Shown here piece after piece: positions 1-63,830 of a stretch of 64,000 nt of DNA. Source of the DNA: Antedon mediterranea. Lineage: Eukaryota; Echinodermata; Crinoidea; Comatulida; Antedonidae. Numbering within the stretch: position 1 is the stretch's first letter; every line of letters begins with the position of its first letter. The translations under genes and the position numbers were made by a program. A model generated the notes under the pieces. It did not search any database. It was not told the origin of the DNA and was given only the letters and a program-made list of their open reading frames with translations. Location: assembly GCF_964355755.1 (NCBI RefSeq), contig NC_092680.1, positions 14,237,001 through 14,301,000 on the forward strand, in the 5' to 3' direction.

Positions 1-56
1 TCTTTATTTAGATCAATGCATATAACCTATAATTCGTGACGAATTAAATCTAGTTA
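1..56. repeat. Fragment of a dispersed repeat, second copy near 53046-53105
   Basis: The stretch carrying TTCGTGACGAATTAAATC matches a segment in the ENSA intron that reads CTTTATTTAAATCAATGCAT and then GACGAATTAAATCTAGTTAT. It ends where the exon-cassette homology begins. Family unknown. Confidence 0.45.
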
Positions 57-2045
57 TTTATCTATTTTCATCATGTTATTGTTTAGGAATCGTCAAGAAG
101 AAACGTCTATTAATGGACGTGACATGGAAGAACATCACAGAACACAAGAACCAGGCAATGGGGAACAACAACTATCAAATCAAACGTAAAGTTATTAACT
201 TTTTACTTAACCTTTTCTTTGTATTCATTTTGTTTCTCTTATTTTTCGAGGTTTACTTCTACTATTTTATTGAATATTTTATATAATTGTTTTGTTTTTT
301 AGGAATCTGGAAACAGATAATAACGTCACTGATGTAACTGACATGGTACCTTGCATAACTCAAGAACCACGTCATGTGTACGAACAACAAATTATATCGA
401 CACAAAAGTAAGTTATAACAGGGAAGGTTTTTCACTCTTCCCTGGTTAAAAGAGTTTTGCTAAAAGTGTATTTTGTATCTTTCTATTTCTTAAATGTGAA
501 TGTTTATTCTCTTTTTATAATTGCCTTATTATTTAGAAATTGTCAACAAGAAGCAGATAGTGAAGCCACCGATGGACGTGATATTAAAGTAACTGACGGA
601 ATCCAGCTACGCCATGAGTACGAACAAATTATATTGACTCAAACGTAAGTTAATTAACAACACCCTGGTTTTAAAATCTTGAAACAAATTCATTTAGATT
701 CTAATATTTAGAAGAGTCATTTTTCTTTTTTTGTTGTTGATCCAATGGATCGAATCGAAAGTAGGCCTACTAAAGGTAGTACCGTACTTATGACGACGTT
801 TTGCAAATATTACATATTTCTCTCTTTCTGTATTGTTATTTTTATGATTTATCTATTTTCATCACTTTATTGCTTAGAAATCGTCAAGAAGAAACGTCTA
901 TTGATGGACGCGACATGGAAGAACCTAACAGAACACAAGAACCAGGCAATGGGGAACAACAACTATCAAATCAAACGTAAAGTTATTAACTTTTTACTTA
1001 ACCTTTTCTTTGTATTCATTTTGTTTCTCTTATTTTTCAAGGTTTACTTCTACTATTTTATTGAATATTTTATATAATTGTTTTGTTTTTTAGGAATCTG
1101 GAAACGGATAATAACGTCACTGATGTAACTGACATGGTACCTTGCATAACTCAAGAACCACGTCATGTGTACGAACAACAAATTATATCGACACAAGAGT
1201 AAGTTATAACAGGGAAGGTTTTTCACTCTTCCCTGGTTAAAAGAGTTTTGCTAAAAGTGTATTTTGTATCTTTCTATTTCTTAACTGTGAATGTTTATTC
1301 TCTTTTTATAATTGCCTTATTATTTAGAAATTGTCAACAAGAAGCAGATAGTGAAGCCACCGATGGACGTGATATTAAAGTAACTGACGGAATCCAGCTA
1401 CGCCATGAGTACGAACAAATTATATTGACTCAAACGTAAGTTAATTAACAACACCCTGGTTTTAAAATCTTGAAACAAATTCATTTAGATTCTAATATTT
1501 AGAAGAGTCATTTTTCTTTTTTTGTTGTTGATCCAATGGATCGAATCGAAAGTAGGCCTACTAAAGGTGGTACCGTACTTATGACGACGTTTTGCAAATA
1601 TTACATATTTCTCTCTGTTCTGTATTGTTATTTTTATGATTTATCTATTTTCATCACTTTATTGTTTAGAAATCGTCAAGAAGAAACGTCTATTGATGGA
1701 CGCGACATGGAAGAACCTAACAGAACACAAGAACCAGTCAATGGGGAACAACAACAACAACAACAACAACACCACAGAACACAAGAACCAGGCAATGGGG
1801 AACAACAACTTATATCAAATAAAACGTAAAGTTATTAACTTTTTACTTAACTTTATCTTTGTTTCTTTCGTTATTCGAAGGTTTACCTCTACTATTTTGT
1901 TGAATATTTTATATAATTGTTTTGTTTTTTAGGAATCTGTAAACAGAGATAATAAAGTCACCGATGGAACTGACATGGTACCTTGCATAACTCAAGAACC
2001 ACGTCATGTGTACGAACAACAAATTGTATCGACACTAAAGTAAAA
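57..2045 (+). repeat. Tandem duplication of a ~791-bp three-exon cassette
   Basis: Equivalent exon starts are 791 bp apart (87 to 878, 303 to 1094, 537 to 1328) and then 792 bp (878 to 1670). Introns are almost as similar as exons, so whole genomic units were duplicated recently. The third copy holds an expanded CAA run near 1750-1770 with a repeat of the neighbouring ACAGAACACAAGAACCA segment. Its B exon has diverged: an early stop plus a 2-bp insertion. Confidence 0.88.
87..1942 (+). CDS. 3' part of an unknown gene made of tandemly duplicated phase-2 exons
   Basis: Eight exons can be read: A 87-185, B 303-407, C 537-644, A 878-976, B 1094-1198, C 1328-1435, A 1670-1825, B 1933-1942 (stop TAA). 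Each internal exon has an AG acceptor and GT donor and a length divisible by three (99, 105, 108 nt; third A 156 nt). Each begins by completing a codon with its first base and ends two bases into a codon, so any order of exons stays in frame. The product is hydrophilic, rich in Q, E, N, T and D, with repeated TQEP and YEQ motifs (RHVYEQQI in B, RHEYEQII in C). I see no membrane segment or known domain; the 5' part lies outside the window. It could be the cytoplasmic tail of a receptor with YxxI-type motifs, which is a guess. An AATAAA lies at 2063-2068. I do not recognise the family. Confidence 0.62.
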
Positions 2046-2290
2046 TTTGTTTGAATACGTTAAATAAATTGAGAATGGTGAATTATTATAATAAACATTA
2101 TTTTAATAAAAACTTAACTAAAAAATACGTTTATTCTTTGATTTTATTCTTAAACATATATTGCTTAGTTTCATTTATTTGTTCCTCCATCGTGGTTTCA
2201 TAGACTTTACTACTGTACGTTTATAATACTGCATTGGCTTGTTGTAGCTGCGGCGGTATTGGCGTCCCATAGAAAATGTTGGCGGCCGTT

Positions 2291-35340: not shown

Positions 35341-38005
35341 CGTAATAGCAGAACTAATCTAATTAATTATTATAATCGGTTGTTACCAATAATTTGGAAT
35401 CGGAGAAGAATAAAGGAGGTCACTCCAAAAATTTTAATTGATTTGTTTGTTTCATTCGTGTGTGCCGCAGTACCGCAGACCCCTCCCCCCAAAAGAGAAC
35501 GAACCCGAGAGCGGATTTTCGTTACAGTACTTTTGGTTAGTTCTAAAAACAACGTAATTAGTTTTGCTGACATTCAGTAACAGCTTATTTACTTTAAGCC
35601 ATACGTTTATTTTTTCTAGTTCAATATTCATAGTATGGTTTAACATTGTAGGGTCATCTCCCCTTGTTATACAAGTTGTGTCGTCAGCAAAACTAATTAT
35701 ATCTATTTTACTACTTGCTCGACATTGATGTAAATCAAAAACAAAAGTGGTCCTAAAACAGAGCCCTGTGGCACTCCTATATTGGTGTCTTTTAAACATG
35801 ATGATCTACCATTGGCATACACATATTGTTTGCGGCCACTTAAATAGTTTCTAAACCACATTAAAACGATGCCTATTATACCATAATGCACCAATTTGCT
35901 CAACAGAATACTGTGATCGATAATGTCAAACGCTTTTGACAAATCCATAAAGGTAGTAAGTGCATATTCCTTTTTTTCAAATGCATTTAATATTCTATGG
36001 ACCAAGTCGATCATAGCATGAGAAGTTGAGTGTTTGTTTCTAAATCCATATTGATTGTTGCTTAACACTTTACATTTTGTAAGATAATTGTATAATTGAT
36101 TATGGATAATCTTTTCAAAAACTTTCGAAAAAATGGGCAACAGCGATATGGGACGATAGTTTGAGGCCAAATGGCGGTCCCCTTTTTTATGTATAGGAAC
36201 TACTTTGGAAATTTTCAACTTCCCTGGTATCATTCCAGTTTGAAGTGATAAATTAAAAATATATGTCAGCGGCTTTAAAATGTTGTATTTTACTTCCTTT
36301 ACAACTTTTGCTGAAATGTCATCAAATCCGGTGGCTTTGTTTGAATCGAGAGATTCAATAACTTTTAGTACCTCCTCCTCATCAACATAGCAAAAAAACA
36401 TTGAGTTGCGTTGTTTGTTTGCGATGTATTCAGAATATTTTGTCGTAGTAGACTCAATATTGTCTCGAACCTTACAACCTACATTAATAAAATAATCATT
36501 AATGTGATTTACAACATTTTCGCAACCATGTATAGTTTCATTGCTATGTGTAAAAGAAGATGGAACTTTAGTTTTTCCTTTGTTCGGATCAATTACATCA
36601 TTTATAACATTCCATGTTTTTTTAATATTACCATTTGTTCGATTGAAAAGATTTTCATAATACATCTTTTTGGCGATTTTGCACGTGCGTGCAAAAGCTT
36701 TTTTAAATTCTTTATACGCATTTTTGTTTTTTACAGTAGGGTGTTTTATGAACCTTTTATACAGTACATGCTTTTTTTTACTAGACCTTAGTAACCCAAA
36801 ACTCATCCAGGGCTGCTTGAATTTGTCATACTGTTTTGATGATTTTACAGTTTTTTTAAGGTGTTTGTTATATAGAAACTTAAAATTATCCAGAAAATCA
36901 TTATAAGCGATTTCTGGATCAGTCGCTTCATATACTCAAAGCCACTCTGCACTTAATAAATCACTATTTAGTTTCATAATATTTCTATTGTTAACTATAT
37001 ACGTGTCACATGAGACGGAAATGCCTTTATTCATGTGCGTGTTTACGTGGGAAGACGAAGCAGAGTGTGTTATTTGATATACTGGTAAATGGTCGGAAAT
37101 GTCCGAGATTAGTATACCAGATAGAACTTTTTCGGAAATTGTATTTGAAAATATGTTGTCAATTAGTGTTACTGACTGATCTTGTATTCTAGTTGGTCTA
37201 GATATAGATGGATAAAACGAGTGAGACATCATTATTTCAATAAAATCATTTACATCACTGCATGTTACATGTTTAAGCAGATTGATATTAAAATCTCCCA
37301 TGATATAACATGGTTTACCTTCTTTGTCTATAGCAGTGAGGACATCTTCAAGTGAATCATTAAAAACATCTATTTTCATGTCTGGTGGTCTGTAGACAGT
37401 ACCAACAATTGCATTTTTACACTTTTTTTCAATTATCTCAATAAACAGACATTCAAAGAAATTAATTTTCAAATCGGTTCTTGTTTTGACCTCTATAGTA
37501 TTTGAAATAAACAAGCCAACACCACCTCCTTTTCGATTTTCCCTGTCTAGAGCATGGAAATCGTAGTTTGGTAAGTATGGTCTAGGTGATGTTTCTTTAA
37601 GACATGTTTCTGATATGCCAATTACAGTGAATGGGTGTTTAATGCCGTTTAAACAAGTAATTAATTCATCTAAGTGTTTAATACTTCTGATATTATAGTG
37701 TAAAAATGAGTAGCTGATATTATTTATTTTATTAACCGATAGAACATAGAATTCCAACACATTTTTTAAACTTTAAATTTTGATCGCCATAAAATAATTG
37801 TCCTACACATTTGAAATTTGGTAGGGCCATAATGAACAAATCTTTTCATCATATTTAGTATAACATCATGCTAAAATGACTTGAAAACTAGGCCTAGGCA
37901 GAAGCAGGTTGCCGTTACGTTAGTAGGCCTAGCCTACTCAGGCCTAGAAAACGAGGTGACGATATAGCCTAGGCCTAGGCTATGTACAATCTGTGTGGTG
38001 AGGCA

Positions 38006-39867: not shown

Positions 39868-41031
39868 CTATGGTCTCAGTGCCCGACTAAAAATAAAGTT
39901 GTTTTTGGCTGCGGGTTCCTGTCCGCTGGATGTTGGTTGATTTTGGCCACATGTTTTCATTCCTGTGTGTTTTCTAATAGGGACATGTTTCATAGCTTCT
40001 TTCCAATCATTTGTTTCTTTCATTGCTGATAATATCTTAATTACTTGATCTAAAGTCAGATTCTTATTCCCACCACTTCCCCACTTTAAGTAGTAATCAA
40101 TTGGTAATCGTACATGAGAAACATTTAATCTTTTTGCAATACCTAAAGTCAATCCTTTTTGTATTTGAGTTGCATCAACTAAAGCACCAATAACGTACGT
40201 CTTAGTGTCATCAAATGTGCGCATTATGTTTGGTGAATCTGGCGACAGATAAATAATGTCCTCTTTTGGAAATTTTTCCAGTAAAGATTGTGAACTCATT
40301 GTCACCATCATCTTATTGTATGCGTCCTTTGTTGTTGTACGCACCAATTCTTTATGCGATAGTGAACCCTCTAGGTGGTTAACAAAATGTATGTGAAAAG
40401 ACTCCTTAGCTTTCTTATTTGCATGTATTACATAACTCATTTGCATACATAGCCTGATAGCTTCTCTTCGTTGCATATACTGGTCATAGCAAAAATCGAA
40501 CACAACATTCTGACCAAATTTCATTCCTTGAGACAGTTTCCAATTATTAAACTCCAAAATACGTTTAGGATTCAATTTGAGAAACAACGTATTTGCTAAT
40601 GGTGTTTCATACTCCTTACTTTCTTCGGATTCTATTTTTCTTTGTTCCCGTTTTTCAAGACGCTTTTCCTTATTCTTCAGTTTCAAACACTCTCTACGAT
40701 ACATGAAAGTCATAAACTTTTCCCTTTGCTTTTTAGATTTGATAGAAGCAAAATGTTCTAAATCTGCATCACTGATTTGTTGTGGGACTTGTCTGCCTGA
40801 AAGCTTCATTTCTTCTATTAACTCTCTTGCCTCTTCAAGTCCTCTATCATTAGACGTTTCTTTACTAGATTCATTTGTAATAGAACAGTAATATCTTGAT
40901 TGATCGATAAGTTTGTTTTTAAATTGGCTCACTGATATCCATAACGTACTTGTTTTATTCTTCACTGATACAGGAACGCTGTTTTTACACACTGATGGTA
41001 AGCTTCTTACCAATTTCAAAAGGTGATACAT
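39868..41031 (-). CDS. TRMT10C: TRMT10C (MRPP1), tRNA position-9 methyltransferase of mitochondrial RNase P
   Basis: One intron-free coding exon of 387 codons (human 403). The N-terminus MYHLLKLVRSLPSVCKNSV is basic and lacks acidic residues, as a mitochondrial presequence should. I prefer this start to the in-frame ATG at 41100 because a TTCACAG acceptor lies just upstream (a non-coding first exon is usual for this gene). A charged helical region (LKNKEKRLEKREQRKIESEE) precedes the SPOUT domain: VVFDFCYDQYMQRREAIRLC, DIIYLSPDSPNIMRTFDD, YVIGALVDATQIQKGLTLGI, AKRLNVSHVRLPIDYYLKW, GGNKNLTLDQVIKILSAM, WKEAMKHVPIRKHTG. With its dehydrogenase and PRORP partners this protein methylates purine 9 and supports 5' processing of mitochondrial tRNAs. 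The frame is intact, so the gene is probably functional. Confidence 0.94.
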   Translation of the reverse strand: MYHLLKLVRSLPSVCKNSVPVSVKNKTSTLWISVSQFKNKLIDQSRYYCSITNESSKETSNDRGLEEARELIEEMKLSGRQVPQQISDADLEHFASIKSKKQREKFMTFMYRRECLKLKNKEKRLEKREQRKIESEESKEYETPLANTLFLKLNPKRILEFNNWKLSQGMKFGQNVVFDFCYDQYMQRREAIRLCMQMSYVIHANKKAKESFHIHFVNHLEGSLSHKELVRTTTKDAYNKMMVTMSSQSLLEKFPKEDIIYLSPDSPNIMRTFDDTKTYVIGALVDATQIQKGLTLGIAKRLNVSHVRLPIDYYLKWGSGGNKNLTLDQVIKILSAMKETNDWKEAMKHVPIRKHTGMKTCGQNQPTSSGQEPAAKNNFIFSRALRP

Positions 41032-41100
41032 TTCTATCTGTGAATTTAACGCAAAAATAATTATTGAATAACCATGGTAACCAATCAATGGCAATTCCAA

Positions 41101-42024
41101 CTTTCATTATGCACAGACAGTTTAGTCATGAAAAGGGCAATTTCTTAATAAAACTAAGCCTAGGTACACTAAGCTATCGCCCCGTAGAATTTTATGATAT
41201 AAAATTTTATCAAGTATATGCTAAAATTATATACATTTTTGATATGAAAAAACGTCGGTTTATTCAGAAACTGTAGACCGCCCTCTGTGATAAGTGATGT
41301 TTTGTGGCGTTGAACATATTGCGGAAGTTTAAACCGATTTTAATTTGTTTCTGGAAAGAAATATAGGCTATGTATATAACACTTAACATGTAATAGCTAT
41401 ATAGAAGACGCTGATCTCGTAAATTAAAGTGATCTTTGTGAATATTTCAGCTAGGCCTATTAAGCCTACGCTGTTGGATAACGTAGCAACCGGTAACCAA
41501 GGACGCTCTGCCCCCGGACGCTCCGGTCAATCACCCCAACCAGGCTCCAGTGTCTTGACATTGTCTTGACATTGTAATCATCACTACTCTAATCTACCTG
41601 GTGGATTGAGTTATACGGAAAGCAAGTTAAGTATCCATAACTTATTACGATTGAAACTATATTATTGTTGAAAACGGTATATTACCGAAGATTGTTGGTA
41701 CTATAAATAAATCGGACAACAATAGGCCAACATAACATTTACAGTAGGCCTAGGCCTATATACTACATATAGGCATATCGTGTAACCGGAACGCCCAACT
41801 AGCCTACCAACCACCAATTCATTTTAGTTACGCTTTTGGCGGCATTTTTTAATTGAACGATCGTAGCTTGCTGCATTGTTATCCAAATTTTGTTTTTTTT
41901 TACTGTTGCCTATTACCGGAAGACGCTCACTGCTGAGGGTGAGGAATATCGCTCAGTTCATTGAACCCAGTACGGTACGGTAATAGGAATCTTGACTATT
42001 TTAGATAGATAATACAATTTCAAG
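41101..42024. other. Region upstream of TRMT10C and 5' of the LINE
   Basis: Should hold the TRMT10C promoter. GGACGCTC occurs twice near 41510 and AGGCCTA words are frequent. Nothing else is supported. The 5' UTR of the LINE may begin near 41900. Confidence 0.4.
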
Positions 42025-54100: not shown

Positions 54101-57100
54101 CCATAAACAACTTAAACCAGCATCATAGGCCTAGTAATTCAATTAAAATCGGCAGAAGAAAAACCCGGACCGATTTTGGCAGTGGCGGACTGCTTTTGGC
54201 CACAACTTTGGAGCCAAAACTGGTCCGGCCGGACCGATTTTGGCTCCCGGACCATATTTGTCGTGACACAGCCACCGCGTGGATGTGAAAAAACTGTTCC
54301 GGAAGTCAGGGTCGCAACGCTAAAAACAGCATTACGATTCTTAGATAGATACATACCGATACTTATTACAGGGTTCGTACACCCGTGAGCTAGTAAAATT
54401 CCAGGACATTTCAAGGACATTCAATGTCAACATTTTAAAATTTCAAGGACATTATTATACCTAAATATTAAGTTCAACAGATTAATAAAAAAAAATGAAT
54501 TCGTAGTTACGATGTTTTTCAGAAATTCAAGTACTAACTGTAGCCACTAAAAAAACATACAGTACTGAAAACATAGGCGTGGGAAATCGAGTAAAATGAC
54601 ACGTAACGGTAGTAAAGCGTAAAGAGTTGTAACAACTCCCTGGTAAAGCCTTTGTGGAACCGCGCCAGACTTCCGCGCCTATCGAGGGTAGTCACGGCGT
54701 GTATTGAACAAAGGCTGATGTTTCCATAGTCACTGCACTGTCGACGATATTTGGTAATTTGATACTACTATAGGATGACGTTCTACAATTCGTTCGGAAT
54801 TCGGAGTTTAAATGCCGTTTCTGTATATCGTATGTTTTTTTTAGAAGGTATAAATAAAAGAAATCAAACCATATTCTAATTCACTCTGAACTTTATTCAA
54901 AACGATCATAAACACATGAGATTTTTACATTGTTTATTTTTTACAACTTAGTAATTTCTGCTAATTTAATCTACACAATAGCCTAGCTATTTTTGATTTC
55001 CTCTAATTTATGTCTAATGTCTTCCTCTAGTTGAGCTAATTGCTCTTTTTTTTCAGAAGCGGTTCTACGCAAGCTATTAGCTTTGGCAATGAGGGTAAGA
55101 CTACCTTTACTTTCAGCTTGATCGGAAAACTTTGCAGACGATTTTTCTAAACCCATAATATCAGCAATACATCTTTTTTTGGCTTTCTTTAAGTTATCTA
55201 ACTCATCGATCGTCGATTTTCTCTTAATAGCCTTTGAAGATTCTGCCGCTTTACGTTTTTCATTATCAAGATGGAGATTATAGCGTTGCCTAGCCCCACT
55301 CACAGAAGTAATTAATTGGGGCGTTATCTTTACAGACAAAACACCACCAACTGAAGCTATGTGACCGCATACAACGCGCTTCGAAACATATGTACTCTCT
55401 GACATATTGACAGCCGCTACCTCCTTGTTTACACTAAAACCTCTCTCAACAGTCGCCTGGCCATGGGAAAGCATTAGAATCAATTTTACTACCCCCCAGA
55501 ATGCGTGATACTTAGTGGTTTTGCTAAGGCGGTCATAGTAAAATTCGTCAATTCTACATTTAGGATCGTATTCAGTGAAATCTGATAAATTATTTAACAC
55601 AACAAAATCATAGAATTCGTTTGCCTGATTAACAATTTCATCACACATGTCATGGTTGATTTTTTGGTTGTCTGCTAATATTTTTAATACAGCCTTTAGT
55701 CTACCAACATTAAGAGATCGCGCATTACCACTTAAACAAAAATTTCTTGGATCGAGAAATTTCGCTTTTTGAACGATTCTGAAACCAAGTGGGCATTTAG
55801 ATAGCACTTTCTTAACAATTGTAAGAACCATGGTCTTGCACTCATTTTTAAACCTGAGTTCTTGTAACTCGGACACCTTCTTTTTCTTGATCAACTCCTT
55901 TATATGCTCTGAAGCTAATATTCCACAGTCTACTTTGTTAGCAAGTAAATGGTTTTTCGTTTCATCTATATTAAAGTTAGTGAAACTTTGGCCATTCACG
56001 AGCCCGGAAAGGACGTCTGGTTTAATGACCAATCTCAATAGCCCTCTCAAACATGCCACTAGATCTTTCTCAAGAAACGGTATCATTGGTTGATCTGTTT
56101 GATATTTTTTAAGAAACGTTTCCATTTGTGTGGCCACCATCACAAAAAAGTGCATTCTGGGCACCGTAAATAAGTCTACTGAAGCAGCCTTCAGAGTGTC
56201 ATACGACTTTGTTTTTGGGTCATTTATTTTCTTTTCGGTCACCTGCTTGATGTACGTTTTAAGGTGCGGAAAAACACTGAGAAACCGCTTCGCAACTGCA
56301 GCATTCTCCACCCATCTGTGTTTACAAAACTTAAGGCCAAACACATGTGTGCCAGTAGCGTTCTCAAAATCTTCCCGACGAGCAGGGGTGTCTTTGAACA
56401 GTATTTGTAAACTAGACAGTATGTCGTAGACCTTCCAATCAATTGACTGCACACCACTTTGAAACCCATTGTGCATTACATGAAGGCCACACGACCCAAT
56501 GTTGAGAACTGATGTATTGTAATTCGTCTTTATATCGGCAGAGAGAAGTTTATAAAACTTCCAATTGACGTTTGGACCATCCATACCGATTTGAAGTAAT
56601 TTTGCGAGATTTAGTTTGTCTGCACATATCTTAAAATCGGTGACGACTTTCTCAGCAGTAGCATGACCCATGAATGTACTATCAAAGAATCTAGTTTCCA
56701 CGTGGTTGTTAGCCCAAAATCGGACATGGATATCCATTTGCTTTAGTTGTGTACCTTTGTTTAGACTTTCATCAAATAGTAGAACGTAATCTGACTCATC
56801 CGTAACACGTTTCAGAAGTAATGACCTAAAATGAACAAAACTTAGACTAAAAACATTTGTTTTTTATACTCACCAGGCTATTACTCAATACAGAAATGCC
56901 TATTACAATTATTTATTTAATCTAAATTGTAGGCCTATATCAATCGATATCAAACAAAACTTACCTAAAATATGGCGCTAACCCATAATTAACAACATAA
57001 GCAAACTTTTTTTCACCACAACTAAATTTTGCAGCTATTCCACTATCTGGAAACATCGCCTGGAATACTTCATTTATTTCATCCATCGACTTGTTCGAAT

Positions 57101-61939: not shown

Positions 61940-63830
61940 ATGGCAGATGGAATAAGAACAAGAAGTCAACAGCTTAGTATAAGCCTAAGAAAAGAAATAG
62001 AACAAAAGCTACGTACTGCTGTTGCCTTGTTGAAAGTTCAAGATGTAAGAAGAATCTTAGAAATTGGACTGTCACCAAATAATGTTGACAGTTTTGGGTG
62101 GACTCTGCTCCATGTTGCAGCATACCATTCAAGGGATAGGATGATGAGGCTATTACTTGAATTTAATGGTAATTATGAATTAAGAGACGTTTACTATATA
62201 ACTTTAAAATAAATTTAAAGAAGGGTGACAGGAAATACTATAAACATTTAATAACAAAGACTAAAATAATAAGCTCCTCCTCTTGTTAGTTGTTAAATAA
62301 TTTTGCTTTGATTGAGTCATTTTGTTTGTTAAGTGACGGTTTCAACTCTTTTATCCATAACATTTCATTAATTAAACAATCAAATTTAAATTTGCACTTG
62401 GACAATACTTTGAAATAATTGACTGTATCAGTAGGACTAATGTCATGATTTCTTAGATGATTCTCATATGATACCCTTGTTGTGTTCGTTAGTGAGTTGA
62501 TGAAGGTGCCGACAAGTGTAACCGACATAGCTTGCATCACACGAGCCACATTGAAAATTGTACACAACGCATTAATTACTGTAGAAACAAAAGTATCAAA
62601 TTATGCACATTTTCCAAAAAATGTGATTAATAATTAAACATTTTCAATACAAGTTGAATAGTAGCAGTGGGTAGCATATTGTATGGCCTTTCATTTGATA
62701 CCATACAGTTTGTCCATTGACATTTTAGAGAATAATTTAACCTGACAATGTGTTTTTTTAAAAATCATTTTTGGGTCAAAGGTCAGTACGCATTCCCGGT
62801 AATTATTAATATATTTGTTCTTAGGTAACCCCTGTATACCAGACAAGATAGCTCATTTTACATGTCTGCACTACGCATCAATGAATGGTAAAACGCGCAT
62901 GGCTAAGTTGATCCTTGAATATGATGAAACACACACAAAAAAGGGAGTGGTTAATCAGAAGGGAAAGGAAGGCCTAACTGCATTACATCTTGCAGTCAGA
63001 AATGGTCACACAGCTTGTGTTAAGCTCCTTTTGCAGCATAATGCGGATGTGAATGCTAAGAGTATAGAAGAGATCACACCACTGGTGCTTGCCATTGTCT
63101 GGGAGAGAATCAGCTGCCTCAAATTACTTATTAATTGGTCTGCAGATATCGATACAGATGTCGGCCTTCCTCTGCAGTATTCCATCATGAAAGGTCGTTC
63201 TCATTGTACAAAACTGTTGCTGCAACATGGTGCAAATCCAAATTTAAAACATTATGAAGATGGTCAAGCTCCATTGCATATTGCAGCCATGAAAGATGAC
63301 CTTAGTACGTGTGTTTTGCTATATGCATATGGTGCCGATTGTGTGACTAAAAATGAAGATGGATTGACTCCTGTGGCTGTTGCCAGACAAAGGTCGTCAG
63401 TTGATAGGCCGTGCCTTCAATACCTCACAGATATAGCACGTAAGTTGAATTAACATCAGCTTTCTCATAGAGTAAAGTATTTTATTCATGTACAATTTGT
63501 CAATAAGTAAATCTATTAAAATAAATCTATATACAATTTAAATTTGAGGTTAAATTTGTGGGTGGATAGAAACAGCATCAATTCTTAACCTTTAACCTAG
63601 TGTAGCTTATTTTCACTTATTACCTCTTTTTACTTATTCTCTCAGTTGTTATAATTATTGAAATAAAACAATATTTGTGTTTTCTATCCATAGGAAATCC
63701 TCGATCTTTGCAAGATACCTGTCGAATAGTAATCAGGACCAGTATTGGGAAATCAAGGCTAAAAAGTATTAATAGTCTTCCACTTTGTAAGATCATGCTT
63801 GAATATCTTGAGTATAAGTATGATGATTAA
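61940..63830 (+). CDS. ASB7: ASB7-like ankyrin repeat and SOCS box protein
   Basis: Exons 61940-62168, 62825-63439, 63694-63830; GT..AG borders, phase 1 at both junctions, 326 residues (human ASB7 318). At least six ankyrin repeats: SPNNVDSFGWTLLHVAAYHS, FTCLHYASMNGKTRMAKLIL, EGLTALHLAVRNGHTACVKL, EITPLVLAIVWERISCLKLL, GLPLQYSIMKGRSHCTKLLL, GQAPLHIAAMKDDLSTCVLL and DGLTPVAVARQRSSVDRPCL. Exon 3 is the SOCS box: PRSLQDTCRIVIRTSIGKSR with the BC-box pattern L-x3-C-x3-I for Elongin B/C, then LPLCKIMLEYLEYKYDD, close to the human ending (QDLCRIKIRQCIG, KVMKDYLKHKFDD). ASB proteins are substrate adaptors of Cullin-5 ubiquitin ligases. The start is the first ATG in exon 1. A Penelope remnant lies in intron 1. 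Confidence 0.93.
62286..62575 (-). mobile_element. Penelope-like element C-terminus (GIY-YIG endonuclease) fragment
   Basis: Two minus-strand frames make one broken domain. The first gives VYNFQCGSCDASYVGYTCRH LHQ, the start of the GIY-YIG-type nuclease of Penelope elements. The second gives FKVLSKCKFKFDCLINEMLW and IKELKPSLNKQNDSIKAKLF, its C-terminal part. At least one frameshift and one stop lie between. It lies in ASB7 intron 1. Confidence 0.75.

Follow-up and report, generated by a model that had tools for sequence, protein, structure and literature searches.

Exon anatomy of the cassette

The window analysed here is a stretch of 64,000 nucleotides (C11:14237001-14301000, contig NC_092680.1), and the host genome searched with it comprised 354 Mb in 18 contigs. 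Close to its left end, at window positions 87-1942, lies a cassette of small exons in the order A1 B1 C1 A2 B2 C2 A3 Bt, of which the first seven are complete and the last, Bt, is represented by its beginning, which ends in a stop. The internal exons, read directly from the sequence, are 99, 105, 108, 99, 105, 108, and 156 bp long, each divisible by three, and are framed by AG acceptors and GT donors; a codon is split after its second base at every donor, so that all introns are in phase 2. Exon lengths and intron phase thus confirmed an initial sequence-only reading of this DNA, which had described exons A, B, and C as divisible by three and all in the same phase.

All cassette exons lie on the plus strand. 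Exon A1 (87..185, 99 bp, phase 2-2, NRQEETSINGRDMEEHHRTQEPGNGEQQLSNQT) is bounded by an AG acceptor and a GTAAAG donor and has a paralogous copy at C11:13045810, and it is followed by B1 (303..407, 105 bp), containing RHVYEQQI, and C1 (537..644, 108 bp), containing RHEYEQII. The second unit consists of A2 (878..976, 99 bp), B2 (1094..1198, 105 bp), and C2 (1328..1435, 108 bp), the last identical to C1. The third unit is partial. Its A exon, A3 (1670..1825, 156 bp), is a long form carrying a CAA-rich insert, longer by 57 bp that are partly CAA repeats, with a paralogous counterpart of 141 bp, and its B exon ends after two residues (NL*). The coding start of this terminal exon Bt (1933..1942) reads NL and then a TAA stop at 1940-1942, which is common to the paralog; the predicted 3' untranslated part of Bt (placed at 1943..2125) is derived from B with a 2-base insertion, and AATAAA-type signals were read from the sequence near 2090-2115. 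A reverse transcriptase fragment (RVT_1) was observed on the minus strand at 2294-2833, directly 3' of the end of the putative gene.

The intron between C and A contains a dispersed repeat (668..754, unstranded), which recurs in unit 2 and is matched at 77-85% or more by sequence on many other contigs. Cassette matches on other chromosomes were considered as exon relatives and rejected, being matches to this intronic repeat. Neither an Rfam search across the whole window nor a search of a phage collection gave a match. Elsewhere in the window, minus-strand ORFs at 35703-37772 resemble by eye a LINE endonuclease and reverse transcriptase, and a 626-residue ORF at 54983-56863 on the same strand looks transposase-derived or domesticated. 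By eye, the ORF at 39868-41103 (minus strand) resembles a tRNA methyltransferase (TRMT10C-like) and that at 62803-63453 (plus strand) an ankyrin-repeat protein. The sequence AGGCCTA/TAGGCCT is about 20-fold enriched relative to base composition across positions 1-64000 of the window, a trait tentatively reminiscent of echinoderm genomes. No mitochondrial contig was detected in a COX1 search of the genome.

Nested duplication and the paralogous cassette

The cassette is a recent, nested, phase-symmetric exon duplication. A direct repeat far above chance, with 97% identity across 300 nt, was found at a spacing of 791 nt, and the next spacing is 792 nt owing to one inserted base in the second unit; the unit length of 791 bp given earlier therefore applies to the first unit, the second being 792 bp and the third partial. 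Comparison of units 1 and 2 showed 7 differences in 312 exon bases and, over the roughly 430 bases of intron that precede the one-base insertion, 3 substitutions. The introns are thus no more diverged than the exons, bearing out the earlier remark that the two are nearly alike. As in tandem in-frame exon duplication generally, neighbouring copies are homologous, their phase is symmetric (2-2), and their lengths are multiples of three. At a deeper level, DNA alignments of B with C and of A with B exceeded those of 2000 codon shuffles (p at most 0.0005), and A and C were more weakly related by the same procedure (p 0.002 for DNA, 0.0004 for protein). Since the three exon types are mutually related, one ancestral exon appears to have produced all of them, and the trio was duplicated afterwards.

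A paralogous cassette was located 1.19 Mb away, at about C11:13045400-13046942, with the order B' C' A B C A Bt (stop). It contains one complete A-B-C unit in the middle, where the window locus contains two, a difference that supports the initial proposal of recent duplication with phase symmetry and changing copy number. Its introns differ by about 4% from their window-side counterparts. Both loci share the same Bt stop, which marks a common end. In the paralog, the donor of one C' is lost, and no recognisable transmembrane exon was found within 15 kb upstream. Relatives of the protein modules were confined to C11 in the search of the whole genome. Among the indels that separate orthologous modules, all three in coding sequence are multiples of three (3, 9, and 15 bp) and none of the 11 in introns is (Fisher p 0.003; p 0.013 when the CAA-repeat case is left out).

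This second locus also bears on the possibility that the duplicated units are an assembly artefact, a concern raised at the outset. Units 1 and 2, which share about 98% identity, are so short that reads could have been misplaced, but they are distinguished by diagnostic sites and by the terminal A3 and Bt, and the independently diverged paralog at 1.19 Mb repeats the exon order with a different copy number. The concern is reduced accordingly, and an artefact is now highly improbable.

Upstream exons and the split intron

Extension of the contig to the left revealed candidates for the 5' exons that had been expected there. The same strand carries, upstream of the window and by assignments made by eye, a predicted signal-peptide exon (MNSRHSVVWRFLTVSILNYVVFAN), a small four-cysteine ectodomain exon (DDCPEEVKHGERNSKGEVTCDTGYNRVECSTPTPAPAGYEAAKCELG), a predicted transmembrane exon (DLVSLAVAVALMVILVIASIFILSIILR), and a basic juxtamembrane (JM) exon (RFCNRGIRSRRRDL...), all preceding a B-like exon, B' (C11:14164512), and eight C-like exons, C'. 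The donor phases of the first four exons are 1, 1, 2, and 2, so that tail modules can follow them. The B' exon has lost its donor at the window-side locus (GT to AT) and therefore reads straight into a stop. The first C' lies at C11:14164698 and seven more follow up to 14189256, forming a tandem, transposon-rich array (C11:14164698-14190500) whose units are about 1.7-4.3 kb long, mostly more than 98% identical, and rich in dispersed repeats. For each array C' tested, one such repeat, with some two thousand first-look candidates in the genome, was found about 1.2 kb upstream. Individuals could differ in how many C' copies they carry, or the count could be affected by assembly.

The ectodomain, the joined protein, and the array ORFs gave nothing significant against Pfam, and a PDB search gave nothing below E 1. 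A Sushi/CCP assignment of the ectodomain was rejected, there being no Pfam Sushi match at E up to 1 or up to 5. A related gene on the minus strand of C11 (12.97-12.99M) has the same types of signal-peptide, ectodomain, and transmembrane exons followed by a tail of another kind, in an open frame of 344 codons. Within the region of this gene (C11:12967001-12997000), a tandem duplication of about 7.7 kb spans the signal and ectodomain exons, and the tail frame contains AVYAQV. Compared with the copy at 14.16M, its ectodomain exon is about 97% identical and its signal-peptide and transmembrane exons only about 83%; the high ectodomain identity suggests either gene conversion or strong constraint.

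The link between the array and the window cassette is provided by a split intron. The short intron that lies between C' and A in the paralog contains GCTTTATTATTTATC (C11:13045.78k), which represents an empty insertion site. After every array C', GCTTTATTA is followed by element DNA starting with GGTTATATGC; before window exon A1, the same element ends in AAATCTAG, followed by TTATTTATC. The right end of this transposable element, which interrupts the C'-A intron, occupies window positions 1..53 (plus strand), with its junction to intron DNA (CTAG/TTATTTATC) at about 51 and TTA bounding the element on both sides. The two flanks, together with the TTA target duplication, rebuild exactly the empty site of the paralog, indicating that the C' array formerly adjoined the window cassette within a single gene. 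TTA also borders both sides of another copy of this element, at window 50.8-53.1k. The last C' is now 47.8 kb of transposon-rich DNA away from A1. Of the ORFs tested in between, some encode the reverse transcriptase or endonuclease of a retroelement and the others match no Pfam family, and no domain of a host gene was found among them by Pfam; the retroelement ORFs explain part of the distance.

The candidate gene, its rivals, and known systems

A single gene of about 76 kb (C11:14163191-14238942), for a predicted type I single-pass membrane protein, probably has the cassette as its 3' end. The signal-peptide, ectodomain, transmembrane, and JM exons, the eight C' exons, and the window exons join into an open frame of 679 codons with no stop, a conceptual maximum from which B' was omitted because its donor is lost at this locus; a conceptual form terminated by B' would have about 159 residues. 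The predicted protein would consist of a signal peptide, a four-cysteine ectodomain of about 48 residues, one transmembrane helix, a basic juxtamembrane stretch, and a cytoplasmic tail built of modules of about 30-35 residues, each encoded by a single phase-2 exon and all presumably descended from one ancestral exon. With a common phase at both ends of every module, the frame stays intact when modules are gained or lost by unequal exchange or exon skipping, and such gains and losses would alter both the length of the tail and its number of tyrosine motifs. The transposable element split the intron, and exon C' was then duplicated along with transposon DNA to give seven more copies. From the compatible phases of the upstream transmembrane and basic JM exons and from the split intron, we infer a single transcribed gene and a cytoplasmic tail, by which the earlier idea of a receptor tail gains support, at least as to membrane topology. 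The confinement of module relatives to C11, the shared stop in Bt, the frame-preserving coding indels, and the related gene at C11:12.97-12.98M also favour a single gene; the failure to find a recognisable transmembrane exon upstream of the paralog, or a Pfam family for the ectodomain, counts against it.

Purifying selection is weak and does not reach significance in the tail modules or in the 5' exons. Tail modules showed 9 changes at 132 synonymous sites against 17 at 507 nonsynonymous sites (totals pooled by hand over five exon pairs and the B' alignment), a ratio of about 0.5 that was not significant (p 0.08), and the nonsynonymous/synonymous ratio of the 5' exons, about 0.7, was not significant either (p 0.35). 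These values count against a single gene and fit another explanation, possible though less probable, in which the cassette is a stranded and decaying remnant: transposons would have split the gene, the upstream part would end at B' as the 159-residue short form or at the C' array, and the cassette would go untranslated. The transposon-rich intron of 47.8 kb and the lost donor that runs B' into a stop both count against a single gene and fit such a remnant, as does the paralogous cassette, which has a broken C' donor and likewise appears orphaned. Splice sites and frames are nevertheless intact in all eight window exons, and the coding indels without exception preserve the frame, observations that speak for a functional cassette unless the split was so recent that the exons have simply stayed intact.

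It is also conceivable, if improbable, that the 5' exons of the cassette's gene are different ones that have gone unrecognised, either within the 48 kb upstream or in other reading frames, and that the cassette contributes to something different from the predicted membrane protein. More than 70 kb separates the cassette from the closest recognised 5' exons, and homology would miss exons that have no relatives; the split intron and the empty site of the paralog, on the other hand, link A1 to C', which is linked in turn to the JM and transmembrane exons.

That the tail tyrosines matter is the least secure part of the single-gene interpretation. The C exons read YEQI, which fits YxxI, and the paralogous C exon reads YKQI; the B exons read YEQQI with Q at Y+3, so that the YxxI pattern first assigned to both B and C holds for C exons only. 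Terminal B copies retain the DNA coding for RHVYEQQI downstream of their stop codon, and since it is equally preserved in these untranslated copies, its preservation reflects recency rather than selection. The suggestion of tyrosine signalling thus finds no backing past the spelling of the motif. Receptors with ITIM, ITAM, or YxxI tails are transmembrane proteins that carry tyrosines in the tail, and the predicted protein resembles YxxI-tail receptors in being a predicted transmembrane protein with tail tyrosines and YEQI in its C exons. Unlike ITIM/ITAM receptors, it has no I/V/L/S at Y-2 (H in C exons, H-V before Y in B exons), it reads YEQQ in B, and it lacks ITAM spacing. Accordingly, an ITIM ([I/V/L/S]xYxx[I/V/L]) was rejected, HVYEQQ and HEYEQI both having H at Y-2 and B exons having Q at Y+3, as was an ITAM (two YxxI/L 6-8 residues apart), because about 37 to 67 residues separate the tail tyrosines of the joined protein. 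An improbable extension of the single-gene interpretation is a membrane receptor that would signal more or less strongly according to the germline copy number and the splicing of its self-similar tail exon. Counting the C' array, such a tail could have up to fifteen intact modules; transposon-assisted duplication would have amplified them, and their number would vary between individuals.

Most of the history described here is known evolutionary mechanics. No match for repeated tail exons in allorecognition or other receptors was found among the open-access papers searched. If transcribed, the locus would offer a compact natural case in which the length of an inner tail and its number of motifs change by whole exons without damage to the frame, and the less and more expanded states of the cassette sit on one chromosome. 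The repeat blocks of nebulin, to which the cassette may be compared, code for actin-binding structural repeats. In the triplicate region of human NEB (exons 82-105), a multi-exon block with eight exons per 10-kb block is repeated in tandem, its copies are highly alike, and its copy number varies between people (PMC9109913). The present locus shares with nebulin a block of several exons tandemly repeated inside one gene in highly similar copies, and differs in having three small exons per 0.8-kb block that would encode the tail of a predicted membrane protein. Arthropod Dscam likewise has tandem duplicated exons in a gene for a cell-surface protein, as predicted here, and these encode extracellular Ig domains and are mutually exclusive in their use (PMC3236188, PMC4835542), whereas the exons described here share one phase and could all be included together. 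Tandem exon duplication is an already known kind of change (nebulin, PMC9109913; Dscam, PMC3236188), of which this locus preserves an unusually clear history.
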